Assembly: GCA_020341775.1 (NCBI GenBank)
Contig: CP070835.1
Coordinates: 1,513,189-1,552,691, forward strand
Length of the DNA stretch: 39,503 nucleotides
Reading direction: 5' to 3'
From: Candidatus Bathyarchaeota archaeon
GTDB taxonomy: Archaea; Thermoproteota; Bathyarchaeia; Bathyarchaeales; SOJC01
This document shows positions 11,510 to 20,016 of the stretch, in pieces. The notes under the pieces were generated by a model. The model had not been told where the DNA came from. It was given only the letters and a program-made list of their open reading frames with translations, and ran no database searches. Position numbers and translations under genes: made by a program. Within the stretch, counting starts at the first letter, position 1; each line of letters starts with the position of its first letter.

Positions 11510-12244
11510 ATGCGAGCCTGGGTTTTGCGTCTCATAATAGTAGCTAGTTTTCTTCTGCTTAGCACTGCGGGTGTAGCGCAAACGAGCCAGCCTCCCGTAG
11601 CGGATGCTGGTCCAGATCTCTTTGAACTCGTAGGAATCCCTGTCACCCTCGACGGCTCAAACTCAGCCGACCTTGATGGCACCATAATCAGCTTTGAATG
11701 GGACTTTGGCGACAGCAGTCCACCCTATGCTGAAACCTCAGCCAGCGCGCCAGATGGCCTGTTTGACGGTTTGACTACACATATCTATCCATTTGGAGGC
11801 TATACTGTGACGCTGACGGTTACCGATGACGATGGACTGACGGATGCTGACGCCGCAGCTGTGATGGTGGCGAACCAAGCTCCTGTAGCTGATGCTGGCG
11901 GCCCCTACAGTGGCGTAGTGGGATATCCAGTAACATTGGATGGTTCCGGCTCATACGATCCAGACAGCACCATAATCAGTTGGGAATGGGACTTGGACAA
12001 CGACGGGCAATTTGACGATGGGGCTGGTGTCACCATAGACGTTGCCTTCAACGTGGGAACTCACGTCGTTGGCATAAAAGTTACAGACGACTATGGAGAC
12101 ACAGACACGGACACGTCAATTGTAACGATAATCGAGGCTGCAGGAGTCCCCGAATCACCCTTACAACTCCCAATATTGGTGTCGATTATTGCAGCAGGCT
12201 ACTTAATCCTTCGTAGACGCGGAAAAGAGAGCGCGCGCGGATAG
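11510..12244 (+). CDS. Secreted two-PKD-domain surface protein with C-terminal anchor
   Basis: 244 residues. A signal peptide covers residues 1-24 (LRLIIVASFLLLSTAGVAQT). Two PKD domains follow at about 27-124 and 125-212; each opens with PPVADAG/APVADAG, has the WDFGD-like core (FEWDFGDSS; WEWDLDNDG) and closes with VTLTVTDDDG/VGIKVTDDYG. The C-terminus (VPESPLQLPILVSIIAAGYLILRRRGKE) is a proline-led hydrophobic helix with an arginine cluster, similar in layout to the PEF-CTERM tails processed by archaeosortases. Role: exposed adhesive or structural module. The Shine-Dalgarno GAGAGGAG fixes the start. Confidence 0.88.
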   Translation: MRAWVLRLIIVASFLLLSTAGVAQTSQPPVADAGPDLFELVGIPVTLDGSNSADLDGTIISFEWDFGDSSPPYAETSASAPDGLFDGLTTHIYPFGGYTVTLTVTDDDGLTDADAAAVMVANQAPVADAGGPYSGVVGYPVTLDGSGSYDPDSTIISWEWDLDNDGQFDDGAGVTIDVAFNVGTHVVGIKVTDDYGDTDTDTSIVTIIEAAGVPESPLQLPILVSIIAAGYLILRRRGKESARG

Positions 12245-13641: not shown

Positions 13642-15318
13642 CTACTTAGGCCTTGTTCTTCGCATTGCCTGCACATGAATTATTATAAGGTATATTGCGC
13701 CCACTCCCGCGATCAAAGCAAATACTAGACCCGCATACGACGGAATCGTAAGAGCTTCCTGATTTCTCTCAACTTCTGATATTTGCGTCACAATTGTGCC
13801 GATAGTGGTGTCGATCGTCGCCGTGTCTCCTTTGATTGATGTAACTTGTCCCTCCAATGTACCTAAGCTTGTTTCGATAGAGACAACATTCCCGTGGATG
13901 ATTGAAACATTTAGCAGAATGTCAGCAACATTTGCCTGCAAGAGCCCCAGTTTGGAATCGATGGTCACGGTGGATCCTTCAATCGCTACTAATTTGGCAT
14001 CGATTGAGGTCAAATTTTCTTTGATGATGCCCAGATTTGGAATAATGATTGTCGCGATCTTGTCCTTAATCTCGACTAGGAGCGCGTTCTCACCTATTGT
14101 GATGGGCGCTGAGGCCAATTCTTCTCCCGTTGTCAGTCCAGGGCCAGCTAGGCTATAGGCAACCACATTGTAGATCCCGGGTTCGCCTACGGGGACAATG
14201 AAGGAATACTCGTAGACACCATCCTCGTTGGCATACAACGCTTCAGATACGATCATCAAATCAACAATGTTAACTAACATTTGACTTTCCAGATACAGAA
14301 TCACTGGCTGCTTTGGCGGGAACCCCATACCTCTTGCGGTGACCAGTGAGTTTCCTATAGCTGTGGCGGGATCTAAAACGAGTAGAGGAGCAGGCACTAA
14401 GAAGTTAGCAGCGGCTGAGTTTCCAGTTTCATCAGTTGCGTTAACGATATATTCTCCGTCGGGCACGTCGGGGACAAAGAAAAGCTGCATAAAGGATCCG
14501 TTCAAATCGGTGGGAAAAGTTGGATACATTGTCACGTTGAATTTACCATGCCCATGCGGGTGGTGCTCGCTAAATTCAATTGACACGGAGGCGCTCGGTG
14601 CAAATCCTGTGCCATTGACTAGAACGGTGGTGGCGAGTGGACCACTGGTTGGACTTAGCATCACCTTGGGAATCACAGTATACTTAGTTGCAGCGTAGTA
14701 TACGCCATCGCTTGCGTCGATCTCGTAGGTTCCTTCAGGGATGCAAGGAATTCTAATTGTAGTCGTGAATGACCCGAAACCATCTGTTCGAGGTTGAGGC
14801 CAAGTGGGCGTAACGTCAACTCCGTTGAATGTCAATGTTACGGGCGCCTCAGAACTGAAGCCTTGACCTTGCACAGCCACCTCGTCATTACATGAACCTT
14901 TGATAGCGTCGACTGCGATGTTGCTTCGAATAGTGAATGAAGCGAAAGCATCATCCCCAGTCGTTATGTCTCGTACAAGTATCGCGTGGGATCCAGAGGG
15001 GAGGGCGGGCACTGTGACGTTAACTGCATATTCTCCCGCTTGGTCCGCAGTCGTCGTTTCCATGAAAAGGCTGAAGAAAAGGACAGACAGGTAGACTCGC
15101 ACCTCTCCGTGTGGGGTAGCATCTGCTCCAGAAACTAGTACAACGGCTCCCACAAGTCCATTGTCCGGTGAAACTGCGACCACTATTGGATTTGCGTTGA
15201 CTGGCACAATTAACCAAGCGGCTGCAAGTAGAACCCACGCAAAGATAGATACGCAAATTAGCGAGGAGGCTTTTTTCCAAGGATGTAGTTGATTGAACAT
15301 TTCTTCCGACCTTGACAT
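13642..15318 (-). CDS. Membrane-anchored TIG-like repeat protein with coiled-coil stalk
   Basis: 558 residues (ATG at 15300 is an alternative with a better upstream GGTCGG). A signal/anchor spans about 17-42. Residues 43-410 hold four or five immunoglobulin-like (IPT/TIG-type) units with the pattern 'G..V.V.G.GF....PV.L.F' and closing IPEGTYEI or VPDGEYIV phrases. Residues about 412-523 are a heptad-based coiled coil built from repeats such as IHGNVVSIETSLGTLEGQV. A single membrane helix (about 528-548) and a short basic tail end the protein. The plan is a head on a stalk outside the cell. The subtilisin gene downstream on the same strand carries the same kind of stalk and anchor. No catalytic motif. 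Confidence 0.8.
   Translation of the reverse strand: MSRSEEMFNQLHPWKKASSLICVSIFAWVLLAAAWLIVPVNANPIVVAVSPDNGLVGAVVLVSGADATPHGEVRVYLSVLFFSLFMETTTADQAGEYAVNVTVPALPSGSHAILVRDITTGDDAFASFTIRSNIAVDAIKGSCNDEVAVQGQGFSSEAPVTLTFNGVDVTPTWPQPRTDGFGSFTTTIRIPCIPEGTYEIDASDGVYYAATKYTVIPKVMLSPTSGPLATTVLVNGTGFAPSASVSIEFSEHHPHGHGKFNVTMYPTFPTDLNGSFMQLFFVPDVPDGEYIVNATDETGNSAAANFLVPAPLLVLDPATAIGNSLVTARGMGFPPKQPVILYLESQMLVNIVDLMIVSEALYANEDGVYEYSFIVPVGEPGIYNVVAYSLAGPGLTTGEELASAPITIGENALLVEIKDKIATIIIPNLGIIKENLTSIDAKLVAIEGSTVTIDSKLGLLQANVADILLNVSIIHGNVVSIETSLGTLEGQVTSIKGDTATIDTTIGTIVTQISEVERNQEALTIPSYAGLVFALIAGVGAIYLIIIHVQAMRRTRPK
13750..14085 (-). repeat. Coiled-coil stalk repeats (four units) in the TIG protein
   Basis: Units beginning IKDKIAT, IEGSTVT, IHGNVVS and IKGDTAT recur at spacings that are multiples of seven residues (28 and 21 for the last three), each with a central LG or IG. 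Related in sequence and spacing to the stalk of the protease at 16.3-16.8 kb. Confidence 0.7.
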
Positions 15319-15383
15319 TCAGAAGAATTCTAAATCTAGTTAAGAATTATGAAGGCTGAATCAGTATTCAAAACAGAGATCGC

Positions 15384-15397
15384 TGCATGCGTGCGCA
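15384..15397. repeat. Alternating purine-pyrimidine tract
   Basis: TGCATGCGTGCGCA, 14 bases of perfect alternation, upstream of the TIG protein gene and beyond the end of the DUF5752 gene. Confidence 0.6.
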
Positions 15398-15519
15398 GGC
15401 GACTGAAACTGACTGATGAAAGCAGGCGAGGCGGCCTGGAAGCGTAATTTTGCGAGGTCTAAGTTTCCAAAAGTGTTGGCGAGTCGCAGCCTCGAACAAT
15501 GATCCTGTGGGAAGCAGTC

Positions 15520-15927
15520 CTATGCAGTGGAAGCAGCAACGAATTTTTCGTTCACAGAAAGCGTGATGTGTGCTCCTTTTCGTAGTTCCTTGAGGTGCTC
15601 TTCGATAGTCGAATGAATTCGTGTTCGCATGTTGTCATCATTGGGCTTGCGCATTCTCTCAACTTTCCTAGCTAGTTCTGAGTCGCCAATAGTTTTCCGC
15701 AGCCAATTTTGGAAGTCCTTTCTCTGAAGATGGAATTCTAAGCTTTCCAACTTGACAGTCTTTATCTTTTCTAAGAAGTCGAGAAGACTAGTGGCTCTTT
15801 CGCCAGTTGGCTGGCCAACTGCTTCATAGAAATGGAAGGCTTCTTCGCTCTTTACGGTTCTCAAGACCTTGGCAGTTTTCATGTCGACCTTCAACTGCCG
15901 GTTTTTTTGACGAGTTTTTCTGGGCAC
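15520..15927 (-). CDS. DUF5752 family protein
   Basis: 135 residues from a GTG at 15927 with GGTGG four bases upstream. The core EAFHFYEAVGQPTGERATSLLDFLEKIKTVKLESLEFHLQRKDFQNWLRKTIGDSELARKVERM matches the DUF5752 pattern 'FHFY...G.PTG..A.SL..FL.KI..V..ESLEFH..R.DF..W....G...LA'. The family is small, cytosolic, helical and of unknown function. The C-terminal 35 residues (LKELRKGAHITLSVNEKF) are outside the common core. It sits alone between the two stalked surface proteins on the same strand. Confidence 0.75.
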   Translation of the reverse strand: MPRKTRQKNRQLKVDMKTAKVLRTVKSEEAFHFYEAVGQPTGERATSLLDFLEKIKTVKLESLEFHLQRKDFQNWLRKTIGDSELARKVERMRKPNDDNMRTRIHSTIEEHLKELRKGAHITLSVNEKFVAASTA

Positions 15928-16131
15928 ATAACCACCGCTATGTATTAAGATATACGAAACGTATTAAGCATTGCCATTCTTAATAAATCTTCGTGCGTAC
16001 TTGTTCTACAATAATACAGCGGCGCTGACACATCCCAGGCAACGGAGCACAGTGTAGGAGTGGAAAATCACCAGCTTTCAGCGGCCAGGGTATCCTTTCG
16101 GTGCATCGCCTGTATTCTTGCAGATGTACCG

Positions 16132-19100
16132 CTAACTTGGAGGTTTGGGGCGGATGGCAACATAACTCCAAGTCAAGATGAAGGCAATTATTATAATTCC
16201 GCCAAAGAACATTAAAATCGCCATCTGAGCCATCGAGCCCTGTGCTGAATCGGTAGCTCCAGCAAAATTTGGTAAATTCACCTTGATTTGACCCAAATCC
16301 GTTTCAATCATCGCCACGCCATCACGGACAGAGCTGACTGCCCCTTTGATCTCGCCAATCGCAGTCTTCAATGTAGCTATGTCGCCTTCTATTTTGATAA
16401 GCGTCCTACTGCCGTTCTCAATGACCGATCTGGCGTAGTCGAGGTCGACTTTAATTTGGCCAACGTCTGTTAGAATTATTGCGATGTCATCTTCTACTTT
16501 CACCACGTTGGCGTTGACAAATGTAAGATTCGCTTGTATTTGGCCTATTTCAGTTTGAAGGGTGGCGATCCCACCTCTGATTTCAACCAGTGACGTATTG
16601 AAGCTTTCAACTAGCGATTGAATCAAATTGAGATCAGCCCTCATTTCCCCGATATCTGTTTTGACGACAACCATGTCGTCTAGAATCAAGTTGATTTCTG
16701 CGTTGATCTGTGTGAAATTCGTCTTGATTAAACCCAGATCGGTCTGGATAATGGCTAAATCGTCATGGATCGCCAGAAAAACTGCATTCCAAGTGGTCAA
16801 TGTGGGGCTAACTAAGAAACTGCTGATTGCAGACCCATTGATGCCTCCCCGACTTGCTTGAACTCTCAAAGCGTATGTTCCATTGGGTGCATCGAAGGGT
16901 ATGTTAAAAGATACTGTGTATAATCCTATGTCGATTTGTTCATTAACCAGCGTGTAAGACGTTCGATCAGGCAGGAAGATACTCGCAACTAGACTGTTGA
17001 CGTTTATGGGAATTCCGTTGATGGTAGTGTGTACATAGAATTCGGCTCTTTCGCCAGTTACATGTATTGACCCAGCGGTGACTTTCACCGTTAAGGTGTC
17101 CTTGTCAACTGATCCGGGATTAATTGTGAAGGGCAACGTGGCCTGATTGTCCAAACTATCCAAAGCTTTTATTGTATGAATTCCAGCTTCTGCGAGAGGT
17201 ATGTTAAAGATGGCGGAGAAACTTCCATTCCCGTCAGCTTTTACCGCTGCAATGAGTGTGTCATCGAATTTAACAAAGATGTCCGAGTCTTCAGCGAATC
17301 CGGATCCATTGACAGCTACCTTTGTTCCAACCACCCCCATGTTGGGAGTAGCCGATATCAAGACAGGAGGTAGCGGGGTCGGATTGCTAGCCCACATCAC
17401 TGCCGCTCTGTAAATTCCTTTTGCATCGTCTGTCCAAGCATTGTCAATGTTTGTATAAGTGTTCTGTGAGAGCCCGCAAAGGAGTACGTGTACATTTCCG
17501 TTGGTGCGTGCGGTGTAGGCGATGCCACCGCCTAGCACGCCAAGTACATCACAGCCAATATCAGCTATCGTCATGCCTGAATAACGATAAAACCATGCAA
17601 AATCGTCGTCTCCGCCATTAATAAGAAGTATTTTGTCACCAACATTATAGTCTTCAAAAATCGGGTGATTCAGCTCTACAGTGTAGTAGACCGTCCCACC
17701 CCAAAACGCATGATAAGAGCCTTCAGGATCACCTGCATATTTTTGAAGCAGCGAAATTCCGTAAGATGTCCAGGGTCCCGGATAGGTGTTAGCGAAAACC
17801 AGACTCACCCCGTACTGATCTGCAGCTGCAATCAAATCTAGGAAAGCCTGCTCGCCGGGATCTGAGGGAACGTTCACTATAACAACGTCGTAGAGGTAGA
17901 TTTCCTGGATTAAATCCCAATCCCTGCCTTGGGCACTGATGTTTCTCATCAACAAATCGACAACTTGACCCCTGAAATCGCCTAAAACAGCAACTTTTAT
18001 TGTTGCATTAAGCTTGGCGTCAATTGCTAAAGTTTGATTCTCCGATATCGCCACGTCTCGAAATATCGCCGGTTTATAGCTCCAAGCCCAAAAGTCGACA
18101 TCATAAGCGCCCACGGGCACTTCCACCTCATAATGACCCGTCTCGTTTGTGGCTACAGCCATTAGCGGCGTTTCAAGTAACTTCACAGTAGCATTTGCTA
18201 TAGCGGAGTTTTCTCTCATGTCTGTGACACGCCCGAAAATTGAGCCACGTGCCGTTGGCGTGAGGCTGAAATTCAGTTCGGTCCACTGATCTGCAAAGAT
18301 GGTTGCTGAAGAGTTTTCGTCCACATATCCGAAAGCGGTTGCCGCCACAGTGTAGGTATCAGGATGCAGCCAAATTCTAAACGAACCATCATCGCCCGTA
18401 CGCTCGCTTCCCCACGCGACACCCAAGACCTGAACATGAGCGGCCCATGTGAGTGGTAATAGTGTCGCTGCATCGGACACATATCCCTTCACGCCGCAAT
18501 TGTGTTCTGCGAGAGCCACCGCATCGTGGGCGTTGATCACGCCCCAACCATACCTAACATCCTTACCGGAGACGCCAAGATCATCGACAGCTGCCCTCAA
18601 CATTAGATAAACATCATTTACAGTGAGGTTCCGGTTGGCCTCAAGCATTAATGCGACGGCTCCTGCTACATGAGGGGCTGCCATCGACGTACCTGAACCG
18701 AAATCCCAGCCCGAAGGAACAGAAGAGTAGACGTTCACGCCAGGCGCACTGAAGTCAGGCTTGACATAGGTTTCTGGATGCGACGCTGGCCAATCGACCA
18801 CTTCCCCACTGCTGAATCCTGCCACCAAGTCAGATGCATCAGTGGCGCCCACTGCAATGCTTCCAAAAACGTTACCCGGGCTTCCCGAAAAGCCTTGTCC
18901 ACTATTGCCTATCGACGCAACAGGAACCCCACCAGCTGCCTCCATGTTTTCAATTGGCTCGATCATCTCATCATAATATCCGCTTGAACCCCAAGACATG
19001 CTCACAACGTCGGCTCTTTCGCCCGCTGGAATTCCATGTTGATCAAATGGGTCAACTGCCCATTGCATTCCAGCTATGCACTGAGCAAATGAACCGGAAC

Positions 19101-20016
19101 CACCCGGCAAGATTAACCCGTGCATCAACCAAGCAGCCGGAGCGACTCCAATGGCAACACCACTCCAGTTACCTCCCACGACCGTTCCCGACGTGTGCGT
19201 CCCATGACCATCCGAGTCGTAGGGAGTAGAGCCAGAGATCACGTTGCCTGACCAGTCAAATTCGATCCACCCGCCCGGAAAGGTGGGGTCGGATGGGTCG
19301 TCAGTCCACATCTTCCCATCAAGGTCTGGATGACTAATATCCGCGCCAGTGTCAAGAACACACGCCCGTACTCCAGAGCCATTATACCCCAACCCCCAAG
19401 CCTCTGGAGCATCGATTCTATCTAGACCCCAGGTCACTCCATCAGCGTACGGATCCATACCGGAACTGCTAGCCAATTCATCTGTCTTATTAAAAGGTTC
19501 AGAAACCACAATCTCAAAGTTCTCGAAGACTTTATTCACCGAGCTCAGACTAGCTAACCTCTGTAACGTGGCAATAGTCACATTTGCTAACACCGCGTTC
19601 GTAATCCAAAAACTGTTCAGAACCTGAGCACCCTTCTCACTTCTTAAAAAAGTCAACACTGAGTGTTGACTCCCTGCTGCATGAGATTTGAGCCTATCCA
19701 CCACCAATCCATGTTCATCATCGACAGAATCGGCGCGCTCCAACTTTATGACCACCACAGCAGTGTCATTGAGCTCGCCATCGTACAGGCTCTGGCGAAG
19801 CAATGGGCTCAATTTACTTAGATGAGAGAGCCCACTTTCGTGCACGTTACTTAAAGAAAGGGAGGCCTGAATCACCATCAGCGCTAGCATTCCCACGAAC
19901 AGACTTTTAGTGTACTTACGCCTTTTCGGAACCAAATGTAGGACCCGCCAAGAAGTGTGCCTTAATGAGATATCGTACGATTTCATTCTAAAACACAAAA
20001 AAGTGTTACGAATCAC
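16132..20016 (-). CDS. Stalked, membrane-anchored subtilisin-like protease
   Basis: 1294 residues; GTG at 20016 or ATG at 19986 (the latter fits the TATA-like AATAATTAGG at 20031-20040 better). Signal segment about 38-56, then an inhibitor-like propeptide to about 175. The peptidase S8 domain has Asp222 (VLDTGADISHPDL), His271 (DSDGHGTHTSG), oxyanion Asn371 (ASIGNSG) and Ser444 (GTSMAAPHVAG), all present, so it should be active. After it come carboxypeptidase-regulatory-like beta domains (about 505-665), a GATase-like alpha/beta domain (about 670-865), a TIG domain (about 875-960), an MG2-like domain (about 965-1060), a heptad stalk (1079-1248), and one membrane helix (about 1262-1284). Role: surface protein degradation or processing of surface proteins. 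The archaeal precedent for a stalk-associated subtilisin is the tetrabrachion/STABLE complex of Staphylothermus, although there protease and stalk are separate chains. Confidence 0.9.
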   Translation of the reverse strand: MIRNTFLCFRMKSYDISLRHTSWRVLHLVPKRRKYTKSLFVGMLALMVIQASLSLSNVHESGLSHLSKLSPLLRQSLYDGELNDTAVVVIKLERADSVDDEHGLVVDRLKSHAAGSQHSVLTFLRSEKGAQVLNSFWITNAVLANVTIATLQRLASLSSVNKVFENFEIVVSEPFNKTDELASSSGMDPYADGVTWGLDRIDAPEAWGLGYNGSGVRACVLDTGADISHPDLDGKMWTDDPSDPTFPGGWIEFDWSGNVISGSTPYDSDGHGTHTSGTVVGGNWSGVAIGVAPAAWLMHGLILPGGSGSFAQCIAGMQWAVDPFDQHGIPAGERADVVSMSWGSSGYYDEMIEPIENMEAAGGVPVASIGNSGQGFSGSPGNVFGSIAVGATDASDLVAGFSSGEVVDWPASHPETYVKPDFSAPGVNVYSSVPSGWDFGSGTSMAAPHVAGAVALMLEANRNLTVNDVYLMLRAAVDDLGVSGKDVRYGWGVINAHDAVALAEHNCGVKGYVSDAATLLPLTWAAHVQVLGVAWGSERTGDDGSFRIWLHPDTYTVAATAFGYVDENSSATIFADQWTELNFSLTPTARGSIFGRVTDMRENSAIANATVKLLETPLMAVATNETGHYEVEVPVGAYDVDFWAWSYKPAIFRDVAISENQTLAIDAKLNATIKVAVLGDFRGQVVDLLMRNISAQGRDWDLIQEIYLYDVVIVNVPSDPGEQAFLDLIAAADQYGVSLVFANTYPGPWTSYGISLLQKYAGDPEGSYHAFWGGTVYYTVELNHPIFEDYNVGDKILLINGGDDDFAWFYRYSGMTIADIGCDVLGVLGGGIAYTARTNGNVHVLLCGLSQNTYTNIDNAWTDDAKGIYRAAVMWASNPTPLPPVLISATPNMGVVGTKVAVNGSGFAEDSDIFVKFDDTLIAAVKADGNGSFSAIFNIPLAEAGIHTIKALDSLDNQATLPFTINPGSVDKDTLTVKVTAGSIHVTGERAEFYVHTTINGIPINVNSLVASIFLPDRTSYTLVNEQIDIGLYTVSFNIPFDAPNGTYALRVQASRGGINGSAISSFLVSPTLTTWNAVFLAIHDDLAIIQTDLGLIKTNFTQINAEINLILDDMVVVKTDIGEMRADLNLIQSLVESFNTSLVEIRGGIATLQTEIGQIQANLTFVNANVVKVEDDIAIILTDVGQIKVDLDYARSVIENGSRTLIKIEGDIATLKTAIGEIKGAVSSVRDGVAMIETDLGQIKVNLPNFAGATDSAQGSMAQMAILMFFGGIIIIAFILTWSYVAIRPKPPS
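16273..16770 (-). repeat. Coiled-coil stalk repeats (six units) in the protease
   Basis: Six units of the form I-x-G/D-D-I-A-x-x-x-T-x-I-G-x-I-K (e.g. IEGDIATLKTAIGEIKGAV) start 28, 35, 28, 35 and 21 residues apart, all multiples of seven, so the phase of a heptad coiled coil is unbroken over about 165 residues. Confidence 0.75.

Follow-up and report, generated by a model that had tools for sequence, protein, structure and literature searches.

Two neighbouring proteins of a Bathyarchaeota archaeon, one of them a subtilase, share a predicted stalk-type membrane anchor

Introduction

Two neighbouring genes of a Candidatus Bathyarchaeota archaeon encode a protein with tandem immunoglobulin-like domains and a subtilisin-family protease, each ending in a repetitive stalk and a membrane helix, which raises the question of whether the two products act as one complex or have only their anchor type in common. 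The window, the 39,503-nucleotide stretch analysed here, belongs to a genome (G000) of 1.92 Mb in one contig, estimated to be 86% complete. Its minus strand encodes a TIG/Ig-type stalked surface protein of 558 residues (13642–15318; an open reading frame with orthologues in five genomes), a DUF5752-family protein of 135 residues (15520–15927) and a stalked subtilase of 1,294 residues (16132–20016; orthologues in genomes G066 and G081). The open reading frames thus agree with the first-pass annotation, which placed both stalk genes on the same strand with the DUF5752 gene alone between them. The genome has two S8 genes, the other being an 808-residue open frame elsewhere. A small PKD-repeat protein with two PKD domains is encoded near the stalk genes on the plus strand (11510–12244), and a relative of it adjoins a stalk gene in genome G011 (L081:11872–14331).

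Results

Architecture of the stalked subtilase

The subtilase, encoded throughout on the minus strand, matches Peptidase_S8 (PF00082) with an E-value of 1.9e-42. It begins with a hydrophobic segment, a putative signal peptide, at residues 38–56 (19849–19905; hydropathy and orthologue start). The GTG start at 20016 gives an unusually long N-terminus, and comparison with orthologues suggests that the true start may be downstream, for example at the TTG at residue 28. The catalytic domain (residues 213–492, 18541–19380; profile match and orthologue alignment) contains D222, H271 and S444, which are invariant across the three protease orthologues and make up a full, intact Asp/His/Ser triad; the orthologues in G066 and G081 are 53–54% identical to the window's protein. 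There are two CarboxypepD_reg domains, the second identified by profile match at residues 592–669 (18010–18243).

A conserved domain of about 210 residues follows (672–879, 17380–18003), which has no Pfam match and whose profile found nothing meaningful in the PDB. This domain is also fused to, or encoded directly after, S8 domains at three other Bathyarchaeota loci (L092, L093 and L094); the named records matching it come from Candidatus Bathyarchaeota MAGs or from an uncultured archaeon, and a scan of viral contigs found none. Beyond it lie a TIG/PGS Ig-like domain (residues 884–950, 17167–17367), sub-threshold here and above the cut-off in orthologues, an MG2-like (macroglobulin-like) pre-stalk domain (residues 965–1076, 16789–17124), the stalk (residues 1079–1250, 16267–16782; assigned from register, periodicity and orthologues) and a C-terminal membrane helix at a hydropathy peak (residues 1262–1282, 16171–16233). 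An AF2 model of residues 501–1294 had a mean pLDDT of 41 and was set aside. In its full S8 domain and conserved triad the protein resembles those subtilases of family S8 that carry CarboxypepD_reg and TIG domains, but it adds to them the domain at residues 672–879, the macroglobulin-like domain, a predicted coiled-coil stalk and the membrane helix.

Architecture of the TIG/Ig-type protein

The smaller protein, likewise encoded on the minus strand, starts with a hydrophobic segment, a putative signal peptide or anchor (residues 20–38, 15205–15261; hydropathy, with an AF2 helix at 4–35), followed by four tandem Ig-like β-domains of TIG/PGS type (residues 43–405, 14104–15192; AF2 and weak TIG/PGS profile hits), the stalk (residues 412–523, 13750–14085; register and periodicity) and a C-terminal membrane helix (residues 529–549, 13672–13734; hydropathy, with an AF2 helix at 529–553). 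The AF2 model was relied on for the Ig domains only, where pLDDT is mostly 75–94, the stalk part being mostly below 65; Foldseek searches with it returned generic Ig-chain matches with TM-scores of about 0.2. The TIG profile, weak in the window's own copy, exceeds the cut-off in an orthologue, and the orthologues in five genomes are 61, 45, 43, 40 and 34% identical. The earlier description of a single membrane helix with a basic tail holds fully for this protein, whose tail (MRRTRPK) is basic, and for the helix of the protease, but the protease tail (RPKPPS) is only mildly basic.

Register and growth of the stalk repeats

The heptad register is unbroken in both stalks, over 24 heptads in the protease and about 15 in the TIG protein, with mostly Ile at d positions and Leu, Ile or Val at a positions. 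Hydropathy power at a period of 3.5 residues is 155 in the protease stalk, where shuffled sequences average 11 (0 of 2,000 shuffles reach 155), and 56 in the TIG stalk against a mean of 10.5 (8 of 2,000 shuffles reach 56). The best period is 3.505–3.515, with little power at 3.667. Superimposed on the heptads are units of the type IxxDIGxIK, the unit glycines of the protease being residues 1095, 1123, 1158, 1186, 1221 and 1242 (spacings of 28, 35, 28, 35 and 21) and those of the TIG protein 430, 458, 486 and 507 (spacings of 28, 28 and 21). The related heptad-type repeats first reported, six units in one protein and four in the other at multiples of seven residues, are therefore present in both stalks.

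Whether the two stalks would pair in register, as had also been suggested, is a separate matter. With the unit nearest the membrane set to 0, those of the protease lie at 0, 21, 56, 84, 119 and 147 and those of the TIG protein at 0, 21, 49 and 77, so that they coincide at the first two positions and are then offset by one heptad; the heptad register could match, but the unit register does not.

Within the protease stalk, a block of 63 residues (nine heptads) is an internal duplication: 35 of 109 positions are identical at lag 63 where about 8.2 are expected, and in the alignment the orthologues of G066 and G081 have a gap of exactly 63 columns at this place, from which it follows that stalk length evolves by whole heptads. 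Another case of whole-heptad growth is a stalk with near-exact tandem 35-residue (five-heptad) blocks in genome G009 (L079:11280–13292, minus strand).

The stalk as a reusable anchor

Matches to the stalk query (E ≤ 1e-3) were found in 35 of 101 relatives, and stalk-type C-termini at E ≤ 1e-6 in 45 of the 257 genomes of the class Bathyarchaeia. The heads that precede them are S8, PKD, PKD with CARDB, cohesin with PKD, Ig/TIG, or none recognised. In 18 proteins the stalk is immediately preceded by a domain related to protease residues 965–1076; the TIG-type proteins of G048 and G021 have it, the window's TIG protein does not. Since pre-stalk domain and stalk recur under such varied heads, the anchor behaves as a reusable cassette: judged from these domain combinations, archaea of the Bathyarchaeia type use it as a modular anchor at the C-terminus. 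No description of a stalked surface protein from Bathyarchaeota, or of a stalked subtilase from archaea, turned up in the titles and abstracts listed by a literature search.

We consider it probable that the stalk is a general modular trimeric-coil anchor and that the window's two proteins are separate, sharing this anchor type and adjacent by chance. Directly established for this reading are the domains, the intact catalytic triad, the heptad register, the membrane helix, the modular reuse and the lack of co-occurrence described below. Against chance adjacency stands the estimate, rough and made post hoc, that two random genes would fall within 3 kb on the same strand with a probability of about 0.0016; such an arrangement is unlikely to arise by chance.

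Other stalk loci vary in content. A headless form consists of a signal peptide, the pre-stalk domain, a stalk of about 300 residues and a membrane helix (L072:14157–15566, plus strand). Surface-protein genes also cluster in G009, where two stalk-anchored PKD proteins flank two surface-type proteins encoded on the opposite strand with a C-terminal membrane helix (L079:4467–13292). At L073, L074, L075, L077, L104 and L110 the stalk gene is followed on the same strand by the gene of a conserved soluble protein of 229–261 residues with a motif like LSLRQLRxGEVxFYK.

A four-helix membrane protein encoded downstream of stalk genes

In G066 and G081 a membrane protein of 133–147 residues with about four hydrophobic segments is encoded less than 10 nt downstream of the stalked protease. 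A genome-wide single-sequence search, unrestricted in place, found eight members of this family in 7 of 101 genomes, and a profile search, some of whose profile rows came from stalk neighbourhoods, found ten in 9 of the 257 genomes of the class. Of these ten, nine immediately follow a stalk gene on the same strand, at distances from less than 10 nt to about 260 nt, and the tenth (G125) lies 3.6 kb downstream of one, with small open reading frames between. Examples are L068:9743–10183, L138:6072–6503 and L139:5950–6336 on the plus strand, and L067:2396–2794 and L079:3900–4364 on the minus strand. Pfam and NCBIfam gave no convincing family match, 398 genomes sampled across the phylum added no members to those known, and neither single-sequence nor profile search found one in the window's genome, which is incomplete.

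By its position, the four-helix protein is a better candidate partner for the stalk genes than DUF5752. A bolder proposal, which we hold tentatively and place a little short of even, is that these genes form an undescribed two-gene display module of Bathyarchaeia: a swappable head, macroglobulin-like domain, stalk and membrane helix in one protein, together with a dedicated four-helix protein that would help the stalk to insert, trimerise or anchor. The module would include the stalked protease, and its partner would have been lost or replaced in the window's genome.

Possible processing of the neighbouring protein

Another way to connect the two neighbours requires no shared stalk: the protease might process or degrade coat proteins, including the TIG protein, in coat maturation or quality control. 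The closeness of the two genes in this genome fits this, as does the like role suggested for STABLE and tetrabrachion (PMC5744192), but orthologues of either protein exist without the other and no processing site was identified, and we regard it as rather unlikely.

Fold and oligomeric state of the stalk

AF2 predicted mostly short β-strands of low confidence (pLDDT about 23–63) and no long helices in both stalks. A bias of AF2 towards β-strands in repeats is documented (PMC11795689), and because of this bias and the low confidence the strands were not relied on; equally, the known bias is no proof that the stalk is helical. Hydropathy periodicity was rejected as a test of helix versus strand, as its harmonics do not discriminate: in many stalks the 2.33-residue harmonic exceeds that at 3.5, so periodicity alone is no proof of a helix.

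The closest solved sequences are mostly trimeric helical coiled coils, with matches to a P22-type gp26 needle (E = 7e-4), reovirus σ1 and a trimeric autotransporter fragment, although coiled-coil matches of this kind do not show homology. A core rich in Ile at d and in Leu, Ile or Val at a is expected for trimers or tetramers. The stalk of one relative, 300 residues long, matched residues 346–448 of 8QOX chain B (E = 0.0014), a chain of 475 residues, equal in length to SlaB of Sulfolobus acidocaldarius; 8QOX is the SlaA/SlaB model and that SlaB has 475 residues (PMC10903991). The stalk is thus, on sequence grounds, most likely a homotrimeric, left-handed heptad coiled coil. Its repeat chemistry is very similar to that of the trimeric fibres (gp26 needle, reovirus σ1 and trimeric autotransporter adhesins), but this resemblance is of low complexity only, with no head or anchor in common.

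Beta-rich rods, either a solenoid or a triple β-spiral, would account for the AF2 strands, the many Thr, Val, Ile and Gly residues and the strong 2.33-residue harmonic, but they are improbable given the low confidence and known bias of the models, the helical coiled coils among the closest solved sequences, and unit spacings of 21, 28 and 35 that vary freely by whole heptads, unlike the coils of a solenoid.

Co-occurrence of the two forms and linkage to DUF5752

The first-pass annotation had proposed a two-component surface proteolysis system with the DUF5752 protein as a possible cytosolic partner. Among the 163 genomes of the order, close TIG-head relatives (E ≤ 1e-60) occur in six (G000, G002, G009, G012, G021 and G048) and the protease-specific domain with a stalk in three (G000, G066 and G081). 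The two stalked forms meet in the window's genome only, an overlap of at least one having a chance probability of 0.107, so that TIG-head and S8-head forms show essentially no co-occurrence. In G048 the TIG gene is about 358 kb away from a distant S8 homologue that has no stalk. No separate S8 gene was found beside the other fetched stalk loci (stretches of 4–20 kb, small contigs being only partly informative), where S8 occurs only as the stalk protein's own head.

The 135-residue protein matches DUF5752 (PF19027, E = 3.6e-9, 36.7 bits against a gathering cut-off of 23) over part of the profile, positions 101–156 of 208. Of 101 relatives, 95 encode the family, in several copies, and the best relatives of this copy (in G009, G079, G090, G005 and G008) are not adjacent to stalk genes; that in G009 lies about 9 kb from one, within chance given several copies per genome. 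By this comparison the trio of stalk, DUF5752 and stalk genes is local to the window's genome, and DUF5752 was rejected as a conserved partner of the stalk pair.

A single complex held together by hetero-oligomeric stalks, with DUF5752 as its cytosolic partner, is accordingly very improbable: the genes are adjacent on the same strand, their stalks are similar in chemistry, both in heptad register and the sole two stalk matches of this genome at E ≤ 1e-3, but the two heads fail to co-occur in other genomes, other stalk loci have no separate S8 gene alongside, unit spacing differs past the second unit, one stalk is about 60 residues longer than the other, each is most similar to the stalks of its own orthologues, and the DUF5752 linkage is not conserved.

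Comparison with SlaB and tetrabrachion

SlaB of the Sulfolobales (8QOX) is a trimer that consists of a signal peptide, Ig domains, a coiled coil with glycosylation sequons and one membrane helix (PMC10903991). The TIG protein shares with it, in the same order, a putative signal peptide, the tandem Ig-like domains, the C-terminal stalk, predicted to be helical, and the membrane helix, and the sequence matches suggest that it may be a trimer too. A profile of six TIG proteins, searched against PDB sequences, found no SlaB chain up to E = 1, which gives no sign of homology between the heads. We know of no protease version of SlaB.

The likeness to tetrabrachion and STABLE of Staphylothermus marinus that was first noted consists in a stalked surface protein of an archaeon together with a cell-surface protease of the subtilisin family, but SlaB is closer. 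The tetrabrachion stalk is a right-handed four-helix coil of 11-residue repeats, to which STABLE docks as a separate protein (PMC5744192). The window's stalks are instead heptad-based, with a period of 3.505–3.515, and membership of the tetrabrachion group was rejected on this ground. The protease, as recognised from the outset and unlike STABLE, has a stalk of its own, 172 residues long, and its own membrane helix.

Discussion

We infer trimerisation, cell-surface position and substrates of the stalked proteins as follows. The stalk would trimerise and be anchored by three membrane helices with short tails after them, raising the fused head, of whatever kind, above the membrane. If fully helical (0.1485 nm per residue), the rods would be about 26 nm long in the protease and about 17 nm in the TIG protein. 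The Sulfolobus S-layer assembly is about 30–35 nm thick (PMC10903991), and rods of 17–26 nm would be comparable to the space under an S-layer of that type. The subtilase probably works as a digestive protease at the cell coat or outside it; it may break down proteins near the cell for peptide uptake, which we favour, or it may trim coat proteins. The TIG protein is probably a structural or adhesive coat protein, similar in role to SlaB.

The shared stalk design is real, and the anchor is widespread and hence ordinary; the interest lies in the stalked protease variant and in the linked four-helix gene, whose position after many stalk genes offers a concrete, testable partner. The stalk is a swappable anchor, not part of one coat protein, and this helps to predict which Bathyarchaeota proteins are displayed at the surface. 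Such prediction matters because counts of predicted extracellular peptidases failed to predict which archaea degrade protein (PMC9123169). A stalked subtilase would be one way for uncultured archaea of sediments to keep a digestive enzyme at a set distance from their cells.
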